Below are positions 2,572 through 44,157 of a stretch of 45,380 nt of DNA, piece by piece. This DNA comes from a virus, in the IMG/VR virus record IMGVR_UViG_3300029893_000015, positions 1 through 45,380 of that record; one strand, given 5' to 3'. Positions within the stretch are counted from its first letter, which is position 1; every line of letters begins with the position of its first letter. Both the position numbers and the translations under genes were made by a program. The notes under the pieces were generated by a model, which saw only the letters and a program-made list of their open reading frames with translations, was not told where the DNA came from and did no database searches.

Positions 2572-3210
2572 ATGGCTGATGAAGTAAGAGAGCTTAACCA
2601 TGCTTACTCAAGTACATATAACAAGTATGGTTCTAACAAGGTTGTATTAGTCCGTGAGTTCTACCGTTCTGATACCGAAGGTATCAGATGTCTAGCAGAT
2701 ACTATCGACAAGAATAAACCTGTAAGGGTTGATGTACCAGTCAATGATGGTACCATTGATTTCGGGTTCCCTGCTAGACTAGGTAATGTGAACTATAAAA
2801 CATTTGTAGTCCACCTCTCTAGGTCTCCATTGAGACAATACCGTAAGGCACTTGCTGTTAATAACTTTAAGCGTGAGATCATTAGCAGATCAATGCTCAC
2901 TGCAATCAAGAAGGAAGTAAGTCCTGATAGGCTGATTGAGCAAGGTGATTTCATATATAGAATCTTCAATCCTACATACTTCTCATATGAGGAGTCAATT
3001 GATATGGTTCGTAAGTATGAGCGTATCTCAGCTGCCTTCTCAGAGAACCTATGTGTGGGTGTTGAGGCTACAAGCCAGCATATCCATCTCTACTACCGAA
3101 CATTGTTGGTTGGTATTATCAATGATGATAATTCAATCACCCTACTACAGAACTCACAACATCTACGTGAGCTTATCCAATCACACCTACCCAATGTAAG
3201 GATTAAATGA
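2572..3210 (+). CDS. Hypothetical protein inside amidoligase cluster (212 aa)
   Basis: No family recognised. It is a soluble mixed alpha/beta protein with no membrane segment or Cys motif. It lies 9 bases after amidoligase 1, behind AGGAGGATGAT, and its TGA overlaps the ATG of amidoligase 2. That spacing implies coupled translation and a role in the same pathway. Residues 1-80 contain several beta-rich stretches (VVLVREFYR, FGFPARLG); the middle is basic (RSPLRQYRKAL). It could be a substrate-binding partner or a carrier, but nothing in the sequence decides this. Confidence 0.75.
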   Translation: MADEVRELNHAYSSTYNKYGSNKVVLVREFYRSDTEGIRCLADTIDKNKPVRVDVPVNDGTIDFGFPARLGNVNYKTFVVHLSRSPLRQYRKALAVNNFKREIISRSMLTAIKKEVSPDRLIEQGDFIYRIFNPTYFSYEESIDMVRKYERISAAFSENLCVGVEATSQHIHLYYRTLLVGIINDDNSITLLQNSQHLRELIQSHLPNVRIK

Positions 3211-39100: not shown

Positions 39101-39370
39101 GTTCCATAAAAATAAAAATATTTATTATTTATTTAATTCTTTCTACTAAGGGGCTGGATAAATGAATAACTATTAATGTATATATTAATTGATTAACATT
39201 AAGGGTATTATCTATTAGGGCCCTATTATGTTACCTTAATAGTTGTCCTGTTCGAGATGGGGGTTCCCTTAGGATCTCTTAGGGTCTATAAAAAAATTAT
39301 TAGATAATTTTGGGGTGTAATGCACCTTATATAACCTTCCCCCTGTCCCCCCTTGGTACCCCCGCAGATT
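39101..39370. other. AT-rich gene-free region with palindromes (control region or possible origin)
   Basis: No convincing gene. It holds long A/T runs (39090-39150), TAGGGCCCTA (39216-39225, a perfect 10-bp palindrome) and AAAATTAT-tag-ATAATTTT (39293-39311, an 8-bp stem with a three-base loop). The combination of AT-rich DNA and palindromes between diverging transcription units suits a replication origin or promoter cluster, but no DnaA boxes or iterons were identified. Confidence 0.4.
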
Positions 39371-39378
39371 AGTCTCCC

Positions 39379-39393
39379 TGATAATCATTCTCA
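39379..39393. promoter_or_regulatory. Fur-box-like site 1
   Basis: TGATAATCATTCTCA agrees with the 7-1-7 Fur consensus (TGATAATnATTATCA) at 13 of 14 informative bases. It lies about 110 bases left of the ubiJ fragment. It was recognised by eye; binding is not shown. Confidence 0.5.
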
Positions 39394-39489
39394 TTTGCAC
39401 CTAGATTCTCAACCTCGCTTACTCTCTCATTTACCTTCGCATGTTTAATATGTGGTATTAGACAACAGGGATTCAAAAAAGTTCCCTGA

Positions 39490-39609
39490 AAACGCGTGCA
39501 GCGCATCCTCGGCGGTCTCGACATCGACTGGGAGGAGCATCTGTCCCGCCTCACCGGCGATGTGGTGGCGCACCAGCTCGGCAACATGGTGCGAACCTGG
39601 AGCGTGACA
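39490..39609 (+). pseudogene. ubiJ (fragment): Fragment of a host ubiJ-like gene (SCP2-type ubiquinone factor)
   Basis: A G+C-rich island of about 120 bases stands out in AT-rich DNA. In one frame it reads VQRILGGLDIDWEEHLSRL-TGDVVAHQLGNMVRTWS with no start or ribosome site, and a stop lies just before it. The pattern VQ..(9)..DWEE.LSR.TGD..AHQ matches the middle of UbiJ (the SCP2-domain ubiquinone accessory factor) as I recall it from gammaproteobacteria. It probably came from a host chromosome. The identification is from memory and needs a database search. Confidence 0.6.
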
Positions 39610-39610
39610 A

Positions 39611-39625
39611 TGAGAATTATTTTCA
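39611..39625. promoter_or_regulatory. Fur-box-like site 2
   Basis: TGAGAATTATTTTCA agrees with the 7-1-7 Fur consensus at 12 of 14 bases and lies directly next to the right end of the ubiJ fragment. The longer 19-mer GACAATGAGAATTATTTTC matches the classical box at 15 of 19 by my count. Confidence 0.5.
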
Positions 39626-39683
39626 TTTATTTTTAGATTAATATTAGGGTGTAATTCCCCAAGGTGCCCTATACCACTCCAAA

Positions 39684-39698: not shown

Positions 39699-39791
39699 TT
39701 ACCATTCAAGCACTTACCAATTCCCCCCATCCATAAGCAATACCTTATCCATGCCAGTACCCAATCCGCCCTATATAGGAGTGCCCAAAAG

Positions 39792-39806
39792 TGTCACATT
39801 GTGACA
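39792..39806. promoter_or_regulatory. Operator-like perfect palindrome
   Basis: TGTCACA-T-TGTGACA is a perfect 7-1-7 palindrome. A second partial copy, GGTCACATTG, lies from 39812. It sits about 60 bases before the first 20-bp repeat and may bind a dimeric regulator. It is not a standard CRP site, since the half sites are inverted. Confidence 0.45.
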
Positions 39807-39863
39807 AAAATGGTCACATTGCGCCGATAATTGTCATTTTTTAGCCTTAGTCTAATTCTTCCC

Positions 39864-39951
39864 CCTATCCACAATGGGATATACATATCATTCTTCCCCC
39901 TATCCACGATGGGATATATTGGCACACTTGGCCTATCCACAATGGGATATA
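39864..39951 (+). repeat. Three copies of a 20-bp promoter-associated repeat
   Basis: CCTATCCACRATGGGATATA occurs at 39864-39883, 39899-39918 and 39932-39951, with starts 35 and 33 bases apart. Each copy contains a short inverted repeat, TATCC....GGATA. Each is followed by a -10-like hexamer: TATACA, TATATT and, best, TATAAT. Copies 1 and 2 also share TTCTTCCCC before the repeat. They look like tandem promoters or operators upstream of the structured region. Confidence 0.7.
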
Positions 39952-39955
39952 TAAT
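39928..39955 (+). promoter_or_regulatory. Probable sigma70 promoter for the structured RNA
   Basis: TTGGCC (39928-39933) and the perfect TATAAT (39950-39955) have a 16-base spacer, which contains most of repeat copy 3. The start of transcription would be near 39962, just before the first long helix of the structured region. A factor that binds the repeat would control this promoter. Confidence 0.55.
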
Positions 39956-39961
39956 GCGGCT

Positions 39962-40545
39962 TTGCAGGTTAGCATCTACTAACTTGGCATGGGGGGTGCA
40001 TTGTATTGGGCAGGGGCGAAAGCCCTGGCTGGAACCCGGGCCTTAATCGAGGGCTACTGTGGAGCGCCGCTTGTCGCTTCTCGCAGGGTATTACTATCAA
40101 GCTAGACCTGCCTCAAGATATGGGGCTAACGTATGGCGTAGTAACGCTTACGTTATTGTAAGGATAGGGAAGCGCGAAGGGTGCCTTTATATAGGGTGCC
40201 CGCATAGCCAACCGACTCCACGCTGCATAGGTCGAAGGGTAAAGCGGGTACACTGCCGCAACCCCCCATAGGCATTGGGCCAGCTCACTGAAAGCATGTA
40301 ATGATGCTAGTACGAGCTAATAATCAAATAACCCCCGATATTGGTTGACAGCCTCTCACGGTAAGGGTTAGCAGTAGGGGGGAGGAAAGCAATGGGAAAG
40401 AGGTAGAACCTAAAGGAACTGCCTTTGCCCTGTTTCAAGTATTCCCCCTGTATGTGATAATCAAACAATCCCTACAGGTTAATCAAAAGGTTAGCCCATG
40501 GGGTTAGTTTGACAATAGGCTTTCATTGAATGAGAGTCTATTGTC
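39962..40545 (+). ncRNA. Candidate large structured noncoding RNA
   Basis: There is no convincing gene for nearly 600 bases, yet many perfect stems. The outer helix ATGGGGGGT/ACCCCCCAT (39989-39997 with 40261-40269) encloses CAGGGgC-GAAA-GCCCTG (40011-40027), GGAGCG/CGCTTC (40061/40075), GCAGG/CCTGC (40083/40107), CTTAC/GTAAG (40147/40158) and GCGG/CCGC (40244/40256). After it come nested AGCTC-AGCAT/ATGCT-GAGCT (40282-40318), TAACCC/GGGTTA (40329/40365), a GGG/CCC three-way junction with AAAGG/CCTTT (40394-40430) and a 15-bp hairpin (40511-40545). It has its own promoter. Ornate phage RNAs such as GOLLD and ROOL are of this general kind; no match to them is claimed. Confidence 0.55.
40511..40545. 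other. Near-perfect 15-bp stem-loop
   Basis: GACAATAG, then CTTTCAT after one unpaired base, a TGA loop, ATGAGAG, and CTATTGTC after one unpaired base: a stem of 8 plus 7 pairs (one G-U) in only 35 bases. There is no T run after it, so it is not an ordinary terminator. It may be the 3' end of the structured RNA, an RNase III site, or an operator before the 40590 gene. Confidence 0.6.
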
Positions 40546-40589
40546 CTACTAATCCATACAATACTGAACGGAAAAGAGGTGTGGGAAAA

Positions 40590-40796
40590 ATGAGTGTCCA
40601 ATTTTTCTATGGCGTTAGCAGCAATGGAAAAATCCATAAGACCCTTGGTCCCTCGGCTACTTTGTGTAGTTCGTCTAACCGCGGATTGCGCACTACTCAG
40701 ATAGATAAGGTACTCCTTGGTCAATATCACTTTAGTCGGTTTTGCAATAAATGCTTCAGCCGTTCTGAGGCACGCGGTTTCTGGGGTGCAAAATGA
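40590..40796 (+). CDS. Small protein with possible zinc-binding Cys (68 aa)
   Basis: I start at ATG 40590, behind AGAGGTGTGGG. It begins MSVQFFYGVSSNGKIHKTLG, has a basic STLC-like middle (ATLCSSSNRGLRTTQ) and ends with FCNKCFSRSEARGFWGAK; the CxxC plus an earlier Cys could hold zinc. It is the first gene after the structured region and leads an early-type set of small genes. It is not a family I know. Confidence 0.6.
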   Translation: MSVQFFYGVSSNGKIHKTLGPSATLCSSSNRGLRTTQIDKVLLGQYHFSRFCNKCFSRSEARGFWGAK

Positions 40797-40818: not shown

Positions 40819-41031
40819 ATGATTAACTACCAGACAACAGAAGCATACGCCTACGGCCTTGGAGTATCTGCCGCCCTCGCTGGCAAGCTCCAAAAAAGTA
40901 ACCCGTATGAAACTGGCTCGGCCTCCTGGCACAAATTCAACGAGGGTCACGGCGTAGCGTCCAAAACCCTCGAAAGAGAAAGGTTCCACTTTAAAGACAG
41001 GCCCGCGCAACCCTGCGGCGCGAAAGCCTGA
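40819..41031 (+). CDS. RMF-like small protein (70 aa)
   Basis: The ATG at 40819 follows GCGAGG. The protein reads MINYQTTEAYAYGLGVSAALAG, then NPYETGSASWHKFNEGHGVA. This A.....G..AA..G.....NPY......W..F..G..A pattern resembles ribosome modulation factor (RMF), which makes ribosomes form inactive dimers. Similar domains occur in phage proteins, often as unknowns. A phage RMF-like protein could change host translation; this is inference from a motif. Confidence 0.55.
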   Translation: MINYQTTEAYAYGLGVSAALAGKLQKSNPYETGSASWHKFNEGHGVASKTLERERFHFKDRPAQPCGAKA

Positions 41032-41068: not shown

Positions 41069-41548
41069 ATGTCCGAAGTAAACAGCCGTACATTCAATAA
41101 AGTATTAGGTTCCTTCATCACGTCGCAGAAGAAAAGCCGTGATGTGCTCCAGTCACTCATTATCTTTGGGCTTGAGCAGTACAAGGAACACCAAAACGCT
41201 TCCTTCCTTTCATCTATCATCATTAAGTGTAAGGGGGCTAAAAGCATCCCTACTGGTACAGTGAAGGAGTACATTAAGGCACATGCCAATGTTCGCTTCG
41301 TGAAGTTGAGTGATGGGACACATGGGTTCAAGAAGGATGGGGAGGTTGCAGAAGTTAATACCCCTGATATGCCTTGGTATGAATGGGAAGGCGCTAAGCA
41401 TAACAATGTGACAGTCGATATGGATGTAGTAGCACAAGCCAAGCGCCTTCTCACAATGCTCCGCACCAAGCTTGAGGAAGGGCATGTGAAGGATAGGGAA
41501 GCCGCTATGAAAATTGGCAAGGCGCTGGATGAAGCTTTGACTGCCTAG
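41069..41548 (+). CDS. Hypothetical early-type protein (159 aa)
   Basis: It starts MSEVNSRTFNKVLGSFITSQKKSRDVLQSLI behind AAAGAGGCAAAAAAATC, with helical ends and a middle that reads FVKLSDGTHGFKKDG. Such proteins are common among phage early genes with high copy transcripts. No Cys motif and no membrane part. It is followed by a strong terminator (41608). Unknown function. Confidence 0.75.
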   Translation: MSEVNSRTFNKVLGSFITSQKKSRDVLQSLIIFGLEQYKEHQNASFLSSIIIKCKGAKSIPTGTVKEYIKAHANVRFVKLSDGTHGFKKDGEVAEVNTPDMPWYEWEGAKHNNVTVDMDVVAQAKRLLTMLRTKLEEGHVKDREAAMKIGKALDEALTA

Positions 41549-42716: not shown

Positions 42717-43337
42717 ATGCTTAGCTATGATTTCAAAAAGTATGCTAACCCATACCATCCATTTACATTTGGAATTGAGATAGAAGTAAGCAATCTCGCA
42801 AGCTTAGTACGGAGTCTGACTTTCTTTAAGGGATTTTATATCAAAGAGGATGTGAGTATCCGTGGTGGTAGTACTGCTGAATTAGTTTCTAACCCTCTCA
42901 CCGCAGAAAAATTAAAAAGAAATGTGAGGGCTTTATATAAATCTGGTGCAATCAGGGAAGTTAATGATTCATGTGGCATACACATACATGTATCAAAGAA
43001 ACTTCTTACAACTGAGAAAGCATTAAAAATAGAGAAGTTTATCAATCGTGATGCTCATAGTATGCACATTCACCCCATTGCAGGGAGACCAAGGAACGCG
43101 TATTGGGGGGGAGTAGAGGAGTACACTCGCTATCGCAGTGTTAACACGCGGCCAGCCTACACTAATGAGGTGAGAATCTTTGCCTCTAGTACTAAGAGTG
43201 AATGGGTTGAGAGATGTATTGATGTAGTTAGTACTATGATTTCATATAGCAACCTTGATGATAGCGTACCCCTTGAGAAGTTCTCTCAGTTCTTCTTTAA
43301 GAAGTTTGGGTATAGACACGAGGATGTTAAACCATAA
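42717..43337 (+). CDS. Amidoligase 3 (COOH-NH2 ligase family, 206 aa)
   Basis: The motifs are FGIEIEV (18-24), EDVSIRGGSTAELVS (44-58), CGIHIHVS (86-93), RYRSVN (138-143) and EVRIFAS (151-157). This is the core of the amidoligase fold in a compact version. It is separate from the two amidoligases at 1780 and 3207 and has no glutaminase next to it, but on a circular map it lies only about 4.5 kb upstream of them. It may use another amine, or it may work with the main cluster. Confidence 0.85.
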   Translation: MLSYDFKKYANPYHPFTFGIEIEVSNLASLVRSLTFFKGFYIKEDVSIRGGSTAELVSNPLTAEKLKRNVRALYKSGAIREVNDSCGIHIHVSKKLLTTEKALKIEKFINRDAHSMHIHPIAGRPRNAYWGGVEEYTRYRSVNTRPAYTNEVRIFASSTKSEWVERCIDVVSTMISYSNLDDSVPLEKFSQFFFKKFGYRHEDVKP

Positions 43338-43344
43338 GTTTATT

Positions 43345-43421
43345 CTGCCCGTAGCTCAATCGGATAGAGCAACAGCCTTCTAAGCTGTAGGTTGGGGGTT
43401 CGATTCCCTCCGGGCAGGCCA
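43345..43421 (+). tRNA. tRNA-Arg (UCU)
   Basis: The acceptor CTGCCCG pairs with CGGGCAG, followed by G and an encoded CCA. GCTC/GAGC forms the D stem, ACAGC-CTTCTAA-GCTGT gives anticodon TCT, and GGGGG-TTCGATT-CCCTC forms the T arm. It reads AGA, a codon common in this AT-rich phage and often rare in the host. Confidence 0.95.
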
Positions 43422-43427
43422 ATCAAA

Positions 43428-43503
43428 GCCTCTGAAGCATTTAGTGGATGATGTGCTGCCCTGTAAGCAGCGGAAGCCGGATCGTTACCGGACAGAGGCT
43501 CCA
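43428..43503 (+). tRNA. tRNA-Thr (UGU), unusual T arm
   Basis: The acceptor GCCTCTG pairs with CAGAGGC, then T and CCA. The anticodon arm GCTGC-CCTGTAA-GCAGC gives TGT (Thr, ACA). The T arm GCCGG-ATCGTTA-CCGGA has one end mismatch and lacks the usual A58; the D arm GCAT/ATGT has one G-U and no base 26. It may be a degenerate but working tRNA. Confidence 0.75.
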
Positions 43504-43760
43504 TATTTATCAATTCAAATTGAAATGACCCCTAAAGCCTCCTAACAGTGCTCAAATCTAGGGTGTTCGGGGCGTAGCTCCGGCTGACGCAGGCAGAGTT
43601 GTCCATTTCTCCTCGCTGACAGAGAACTGTTGTGGTTATGCCTTGTTCATTGGGAGTCCCCGGTGATGGAGTAGCTACCAAGGCTGAGACTACGTAACGT
43701 GTACTGTGTGCGGGCACTACGAAAAGGTGTCGCCGGAATCGTAACCGGCACTAACTCCAA
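43504..43760 (+). other. Inter-tRNA region with tRNA-like 3' end
   Basis: No gene found on either strand. The last part (43730-43759) has GCCGG-AATCGTAA-CCGGC and then ACTAACTCCA, which resembles a T arm and CCA end. It stops one base before the next tRNA. I could not fold a complete cloverleaf upstream of it. It may be a decayed or interrupted tRNA, or a processing leader. Confidence 0.35.
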
Positions 43761-43838
43761 GCCCCCCTAGCATAATTGGTTAATGCGCTCAGCTCATAAC
43801 TGAAGGAAGGAGCGGTTCGAATCCGCCGGGGGGCACCA
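43761..43838 (+). tRNA. tRNA with CAU anticodon (elongator Met, or Ile2)
   Basis: GCCCCCC pairs with GGGGGGC, then A and CCA. GCAT/ATGC forms the D stem, CTCAG-CTCATAA-CTGAA gives CAT with one mismatch at the top of the stem, and GGCGGATTCGAACCGC-type pairing holds the T arm. There are no three G-C pairs as in the initiator. Whether it is Met or lysidine-modified Ile2 (reading AUA) cannot be told by eye. Confidence 0.9.
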
Positions 43839-43870
43839 ATTTATGGCAGTTTAGAGGAGGATAACTCTAA

Positions 43871-44038
43871 ATGAGTACGTATAACATTGAAATGCGCAGA
43901 CTGCTGGAAGTGAATACTGACCCACAGCGCCGCTGCAAGGTGCGCGACGTGAGTTTAGAGCAGTGCTATCAAGCACCATTTAATCACCCCCTAGAAGCCC
44001 CTGAGAAGCTCTCTGTTGCGTTTTCATGGACTACCTAG
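43871..44038 (+). CDS. Hypothetical protein between tRNAs (55 aa)
   Basis: A very strong ribosome site, GAGGAGGATAACTCTAA, precedes the ATG at 43871. The protein reads MSTYNIEMRRLLEVN, then DPQRRCKVRDVSLEQ and ends VAFSWTT. The G+C is higher than in the neighbours. No family recognised; it lies in the tRNA block and is short. Confidence 0.6.
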   Translation: MSTYNIEMRRLLEVNTDPQRRCKVRDVSLEQCYQAPFNHPLEAPEKLSVAFSWTT

Positions 44039-44070
44039 GGCTACCTCATTGGTTGTGGTGATAAGATTGA

Positions 44071-44157
44071 GCCTGAGTGGCGAAATTGGTAGACGCAAGG
44101 GACTTAAAATCCCTCAGCTGAAATGCTATGCCGGTTCGACTCCGGCCTCAGGTACCA
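44071..44157 (+). tRNA. tRNA-Leu (UAA)
   Basis: Class II tRNA of 87 bases. GCCTGAG pairs with CTCAGGT, then A and CCA; the anticodon loop CTTAAAA gives TAA; there is a long variable arm and the T arm GCCGG-TTCGACT-CCGGC. It reads UUA. Confidence 0.95.

Follow-up and report, generated by a model that had tools for sequence, protein, structure and literature searches.

Described Phage RNAs and the Present Locus

The packaging RNA of phi29 is a small phage RNA encoded near a genome end, and the put RNA of HK022 is a phage RNA that controls transcription elongation by a mechanism of the antitermination type. The early mRNA of phage T7 is transcribed by the host, and long stems that are RNase III sites lie between its units. 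RNase III sites are long imperfect duplexes without a T-run. The T7 early leader is not known to hold a structured RNA of ~550 nt. The large phage RNAs GOLLD and ROOL are of a known kind, of which few are known and the functions are poorly understood (PMC12286853, Nature 2025).

The window analysed here was the whole 45,380-base virus record IMGVR_UViG_3300029893_000015, to which all coordinates refer unless another phage is named. A folded, non-coding region in it appears to be an early phage RNA of an undescribed type. The window RNA resembles GOLLD and ROOL in being phage-encoded, several hundred nucleotides long, highly folded and non-coding, and the window also has four tRNA genes (Arg, Thr, Met and Leu; 43345-44157) 3-4 kb from the RNA. 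However, GOLLD and ROOL are often reported near tRNA islands, whereas the window RNA is located at the left end, at the head of the predicted early transcript. For the window RNA, oligomeric cages would be hypothetical. The Rfam search proposed in the earlier note gave no match at the gathering score over 40010-40589, GOLLD and ROOL included, and an identity with either of these RNAs was thus ruled out. The only Rfam match at E up to 5, to MIR8001, was rejected as a generic chance miRNA hairpin with a score far below its cut-off. The phi29 packaging RNA, for its part, is much shorter and serves another packaging system. The open-licence papers searched contained nothing on structured RNAs or sigma54 promoters of Zobellviridae.

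Genome Layout and Left End

As judged from its sequence, the window phage is a Zobellviridae-like podovirus (a short-tailed water phage). Its terminase had 61% identity to that of Manatee Spring podovirus MW202697 and 59% identity to that of Methylophilales phage MEP401, a member of Zobellviridae. A close relative was not found in IMG/VR scans with neighbouring proteins and DNA motifs, in which the best terminase was 64% identical. The transcription directions diverge in the window, with late genes running leftward and early genes rightward, and the structured region lies in the non-coding gap between them. The following features were placed at the left end and in the rightward early region:

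39314 to 39326, no strand: conserved palindrome GGTGTAATGCACC, where the terminase probably cuts
40590 to 40796, + strand: small ORF of 68 aa with AGAGG upstream, likely the first early gene (an uncertain sequence reading)
40819 to 41031, + strand: small ORF of 70 aa, weakly RMF-like, directly after the RNA
41069 to 41548, + strand: early gene (PHROG 14737) with relatives in ICP2 (p27) and RIO-1 (gp1), the left-end anchor across relatives

The 68-aa ORF had a codon score of -0.05 and no family match, and the likeness of the 70-aa ORF to the Pfam RMF (ribosome modulation factor) family was below the cut-off (E = 0.14). In the window phage, ICP2 and RIO-1 alike, a non-coding gap of ~1 to 1.8 kb precedes the 41069 gene or its homologue, or a neighbouring small gene. 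An amidoligase-like gene was located at 42717-43337, ~3 kb downstream of the RNA.

The RIO-1 record starts at the TGCACC of its motif, directly after GGTGCTA, and its annotated left terminal repeat is 121 bp. In HP1, a close RIO-1 relative, the RIO-1 end falls within the palindrome GGTGCTATGCACC. Because these ends lie inside a palindrome and a similar motif occurs at 39314-39326, the window phage probably has its physical left end at about 39321. Similar terminase-site motifs were read in most of the relatives inspected, namely in Manatee, L065, L093, L020, HP1, KZY1, all174 and ICP2; a packaging-motif search of IMG/VR returned mostly chance matches. Cobaviruses are reported to have direct terminal repeats whose 5' end is conserved and rich in G+C (PMC6775973). 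An imperfect second copy of the terminase site was present at 39639-39660, 334 bp downstream of the first (39305-39326), and may mark the other end of a terminal repeat. The structured region starts ~0.65 kb inward of the predicted left end and precedes the first early genes, an arrangement shared with HP1, RIO-1 and others, and the left end would be the DNA end that enters the cell first.

Folding Signal and Coding Potential

The + strand of 39962-40545 had a minimum free energy of -229.6 kcal/mol, compared with -193.1 ± 6.9 kcal/mol for 200 dinucleotide shuffles, none of which reached it (z = -5.3). A smaller run with 20 shuffles gave a z value of -6.0. When the genome was divided into 154 tiles of 584 nt on both strands, this region ranked first with a z value of -5.4, followed by a tile at -3.7; the mean was -1.2 and the standard deviation 1.1. 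The complementary strand of the same region had a z value of only -1.6. The expectation of the earlier note that the energy would be better than that of shuffled sequences was therefore borne out. The G+C content was ~0.53 in the region versus 0.39-0.43 upstream, in line with the rise over the flanking DNA that had been reported. The RNA and its 3' stem were delimited as follows:

40010 to 40560, + strand: structured RNA body, with a 5' GAAA hairpin (40013-40026), several branched helices and a 3' terminal stem
40505 to 40551, + strand: terminal stem of 16 bp (40511-40526 with 40530-40545), a 2x2 internal loop and then 4 bp

For 40010-40589, the z value was -5.5 and none of 100 shuffles reached the native energy. 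After removal of the terminal stem, the value was -3.1, again with none of 100. The claim of a large structured noncoding RNA withstood two of the three refutation tests in the earlier note, those of folding energy and coding signal, whereas its boundaries were revised and the outer helix that had been assigned to it probably does not belong to it.

The possibility that the region encodes small unknown proteins was weighed against the same stretch. ORFs of 51-71 aa are present, but they scored -0.13 to -0.24 per codon under phage codon usage, whereas long phage ORFs averaged +0.16, and no ORF inside the region matched a family. The earlier statement that the region lacks a convincing gene stands, and a coding explanation appears very improbable.

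Individual Stems

The GAAA-capped hairpin described in the earlier note was present in the minimum-energy fold, at 40013-40026. The nested double hairpin at 40282-40318 was likewise recovered, with pairing probabilities of 0.95-0.98. The terminal stem at 40511-40545, first described as 15 bp, has 15-16 bp in the minimum-energy fold and beat all shuffles: 16 uninterrupted pairs close a 3-nt loop, and 0 of 300 shuffles reached 16 bp. In contrast, the supposed three-way junction at 40394-40430 folded as a stacked hairpin with internal loops (40391-40396 with 40429-40434, and 40399-40406 with 40419-40426). The outer helix (39989-39997 with 40261-40269) exists as an exact 9-bp match and appears in the minimum-energy fold, but it is not beyond chance, since a distant 9-bp Watson-Crick match arose in 198 of 500 shuffles. 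This helix also overlaps the DNA of a sigma54-type promoter at 39985-40000.

Chance pairing in G-rich DNA had been named as a caveat from the outset, and it applied to the outer helix but not to the whole fold or the terminal stem, both of which exceeded the shuffles. More generally, the whole signal might be chance folding of a G-rich non-coding stretch. The chance-level outer helix is consistent with this explanation, as is the lack of a homologue of the window RNA in distant blastn searches of 50,697 phage records and in nhmmer and blastn searches against all loci fetched. However, the first rank among 154 tiles, the absence of any shuffle reaching the native energy (0 of 200 and 0 of 100), the excess of the remainder over shuffles without the terminal stem, and the structured RNAs that relatives carry in this slot all argue against it, and chance folding was considered improbable.

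No T-run follows the terminal stem, and no intrinsic terminator was found after the RNA on the + strand. As a long imperfect stem (~20 bp) without a U-run, the terminal stem is a candidate RNase III-like processing site.

Promoters and Upstream Repeats

Upstream of the structured region, the following elements were found:

39781 to 39840, no strand: three 20-bp repeats GTGACA-N5-TGTCAC, spacing 20, activator-like
39855 to 39951, no strand: three 29-bp repeats with the palindrome TATCC-N6-GGATA, spacing 35 and 33
39928 to 39955, + strand: sigma70-like promoter TTGGCC-16-TATAAT, 10/12 match, overlapping the third 29-bp repeat
39985 to 40000, + strand: sigma54-type -24/-12 promoter TGGCATGGGGGGTGCA, predicted RNA start about 40010

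The promoter with TATAAT that had been placed just before the region is present (TATAAT at 39950-39955, with TTGGCC 16 nt upstream; 10 of 12 positions). However, six sigma70-like sites were seen in the region versus 3.7 expected, the site is weak by itself, and it was kept only as an alternative to the preferred sigma54-type site. The pattern TGGCAYGN5TGCW has a single match in the window (0.14 expected), and 14 of 100 genome shuffles hold one. TGGCATGGGGGGTGCA scored 15 of 16, with a shuffle p of 0.015 in the leader and with the TGG...TGC elements at the correct spacing; base -14 is off consensus (G instead of T/C). Of the 21 phages compared, 12 have a sigma54-type element in the left-end leader that scores 14-16 of 16; scores in the remaining nine stay at background, 13 or less. 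The flanking bases are also shared, as in the window (TTGGCATGGGGGGTGCATTGTATTGGG) and L167 (TTGGCATGGGCCTTGCATTCTATTGGGG). Beyond the window, this promoter was seen in the left-end leaders of L010, L015, L020, L093, L166-L168, L170, L171, L189 and L006. Phage-specific palindromic repeats often lie upstream of it in Zobellviridae and related phages.

The palindromic repeats at 39781-39951 may be activator sites, and the GTGACA-N5-TGTCAC palindrome is also repeated in L166 and L167. A sigma54 activator domain (PF00158) was not found in the window phage; the presumed host genome encodes at least 13 sigma54 activators. Because the outer helix is at chance level and lies inside the sigma54-type promoter, a start of the RNA near 40010, right at the GAAA hairpin, is more likely; use of this promoter would leave the outer helix upstream of the transcript. 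The alternative start at 39962 gives an equally good fold plus an extra 9-bp helix.

Folded Leader RNAs of Related Phages

When IMG/VR was queried with the first gene of the Manatee phage, four more phages came up whose leaders could be aligned (L169 and L065 are one contig, and no Manatee-type RNA was seen in L171). Six leaders shared one architecture in single-sequence folds at low sequence identity:

L004, 5709 to 5868: Manatee-type RNA
L065, 588 to 751: Manatee-type RNA
L166, 2319 to 2469: Manatee-type RNA
L167, 2313 to 2457: Manatee-type RNA
L168, 2105 to 2251: Manatee-type RNA
L170, 2103 to 2252: Manatee-type RNA

A covariance model built from L170, L168 and L065 found L166 (E = 1.6e-16), Manatee (4.5e-12) and L167 (1.8e-9). 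The model covers the 3' domain, with five covarying helices and 43 pairs. Double compensatory changes occurred in 36 of the 43 pairs, and 96% of the cells paired, compared with 35-48% when the partners were slid by 1-3 columns; fitting of the alignment to the structure biases these values somewhat in favour, but the model recovered three of the six members without having been trained on them. Shuffles reached none of the covariation measures. The Manatee-type leader is thus a new structured RNA family, for which no Rfam match was found in four sequences. An invariant GGGCA precedes its last hairpin, and the first gene follows shortly after. An H-type pseudoknot (GGGC with GCCC) is a putative further element, as the columns concerned hardly vary.

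The window RNA occupies the Manatee-type position between the left-end promoter and the first early gene, and it shares the length class (~0.5-0.7 kb) and a long stem near the 3' end. A sigma54-type promoter is present in five of the six Manatee-type phages (absent in L065), as in the window. However, the covariance models missed the window RNA, and there is no sequence similarity. With filters off, R1 and R2 matched the terminal stem only (9.7 and 13.4 bits, respectively), whereas members scored 43-179 with R1, and membership was rejected; the 13.4 bits correspond to E = 0.003 in 2.6 kb, a score that a long hairpin alone could yield. The left-end RNA of the Melvirus phages RIO-1, HP1 and KZY1 likewise shares the slot, the length of ~0.5 kb and the terminal stem. 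In these leaders, the terminal stem changes on both sides while the flanking internal loop AGTC/TATCA is kept. Unlike the window, they carry a sigma70-type promoter (TTGACA...TATTAT/TATAAT), and they show no sequence similarity to the window RNA. Since no sequence homologue of the window RNA was found, the covariation evidence belongs to the RNAs of relatives. Nevertheless, the massive covariation of a family in the same slot makes an RNA in the window much more likely. Separately, the MEP401 leader (L014, 42400-42987) folded strikingly well, and better on the strand that does not carry the early genes (z of -10.2) than on the one that does (-5.6).

A DNA-level element near the genome end, such as a replication origin or a packaging or nicking site, is suggested by the predicted packaging site and the palindromic repeats nearby. 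It does not account for the strand-specific signal (z of -5.3 on the + strand and -1.6 on the - strand). Moreover, the Manatee-type family conserves G-U pairs, which turn into A-C mismatches in the complementary strand and therefore point to RNA rather than DNA. An element of this kind was considered quite unlikely.

In L020 and L093, the promoter lies ~70 nt before the ATG, directly before the first gene and without the RNA; hence, the RNA is an optional cassette. Furthermore, the gene after the RNA varies among phages with the same RNA family, and this variation, together with the absence of the RNA from L020 and L093, argues against control of one particular gene. These observations bear on the main rival explanation, a purely cis-acting 5' leader that controls elongation (attenuation or antitermination) or the translation or stability of the early mRNA and is never a separate molecule. 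Such a leader would look much the same as an RNA acting in trans. It fits the apparent co-transcription with the early genes, as no terminator intervenes, and the Manatee-type hairpin, in which GGGCAA and AACC are conserved and which immediately precedes the ribosome-binding site. The change of the downstream first gene within one RNA family, the phages without the RNA and a length of ~550 nt, which is long for an attenuator, speak against it. On this balance, a purely cis-acting leader was regarded as possible but somewhat doubtful.

Proposed Mechanism

The explanation preferred here, to which we attach about an even chance, is that a structured RNA heads the first early transcript, is freed by cleavage of its terminal stem and acts in trans. 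From the sequence, we infer that transcription would begin near 40010 from the sigma54-type promoter at 39985-40000, with the activator-like repeats upstream. The first ~550 nt would take up a compact, branched structure and code for no protein, and without an intrinsic terminator this RNA would be co-transcribed with the first early genes. Cleavage within the long terminal stem (40505-40551) would probably free it, as RNase III does in T7 early RNA, and the freed RNA may then act in trans early in infection.

A wider reading is offered tentatively, and we hold it to be rather less than probable: the left end of Zobellviridae would be reserved for large structured RNAs that diverge quickly. 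These would be the first products of infection, in many cases transcribed from a sigma54-type promoter, and once freed from the early mRNA they would counter the host or its defences in trans. In this picture, the window RNA would represent one of several classes that are unrelated or have diverged beyond recognition, possibly ornate and self-assembling. The whole phage family appears to reserve a slot for structured RNAs where the early region begins, and one RNA family in this slot combines strong covariation with absence from Rfam. The slot suggests a natural time of action, and RIO-1 and HP1 are culturable members. A sigma54-type promoter heading a phage early region would be unusual and would couple early transcription to host activators.

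Other Observations Near the Left End

Within 39491-39608, 103 bp showed 100% identity to a coding gene from a Thiohalomonas denitrificans MAG (DYFR01000019), and the 15 bp that follow match the same stretch of DYFR01000019 once 34 bp are skipped. We read the gene as ubiJ-like from the peptide VQRILGGLDIDWEEHLSRLTGDVVAHQLGNMVRTW. The segment is either a remnant of a host gene at the left end of the phage or the product of a chimeric assembly, and the identity suggests a Thiohalomonas-like host. Two Fur-box-like sequences, TGATAATCATTCTCATTT, lie in inverted orientation on either side of this segment (39379-39400 and 39604-39625); the same sequence also occurs in L029 (about 3061-3080), and a near copy was seen in L020.
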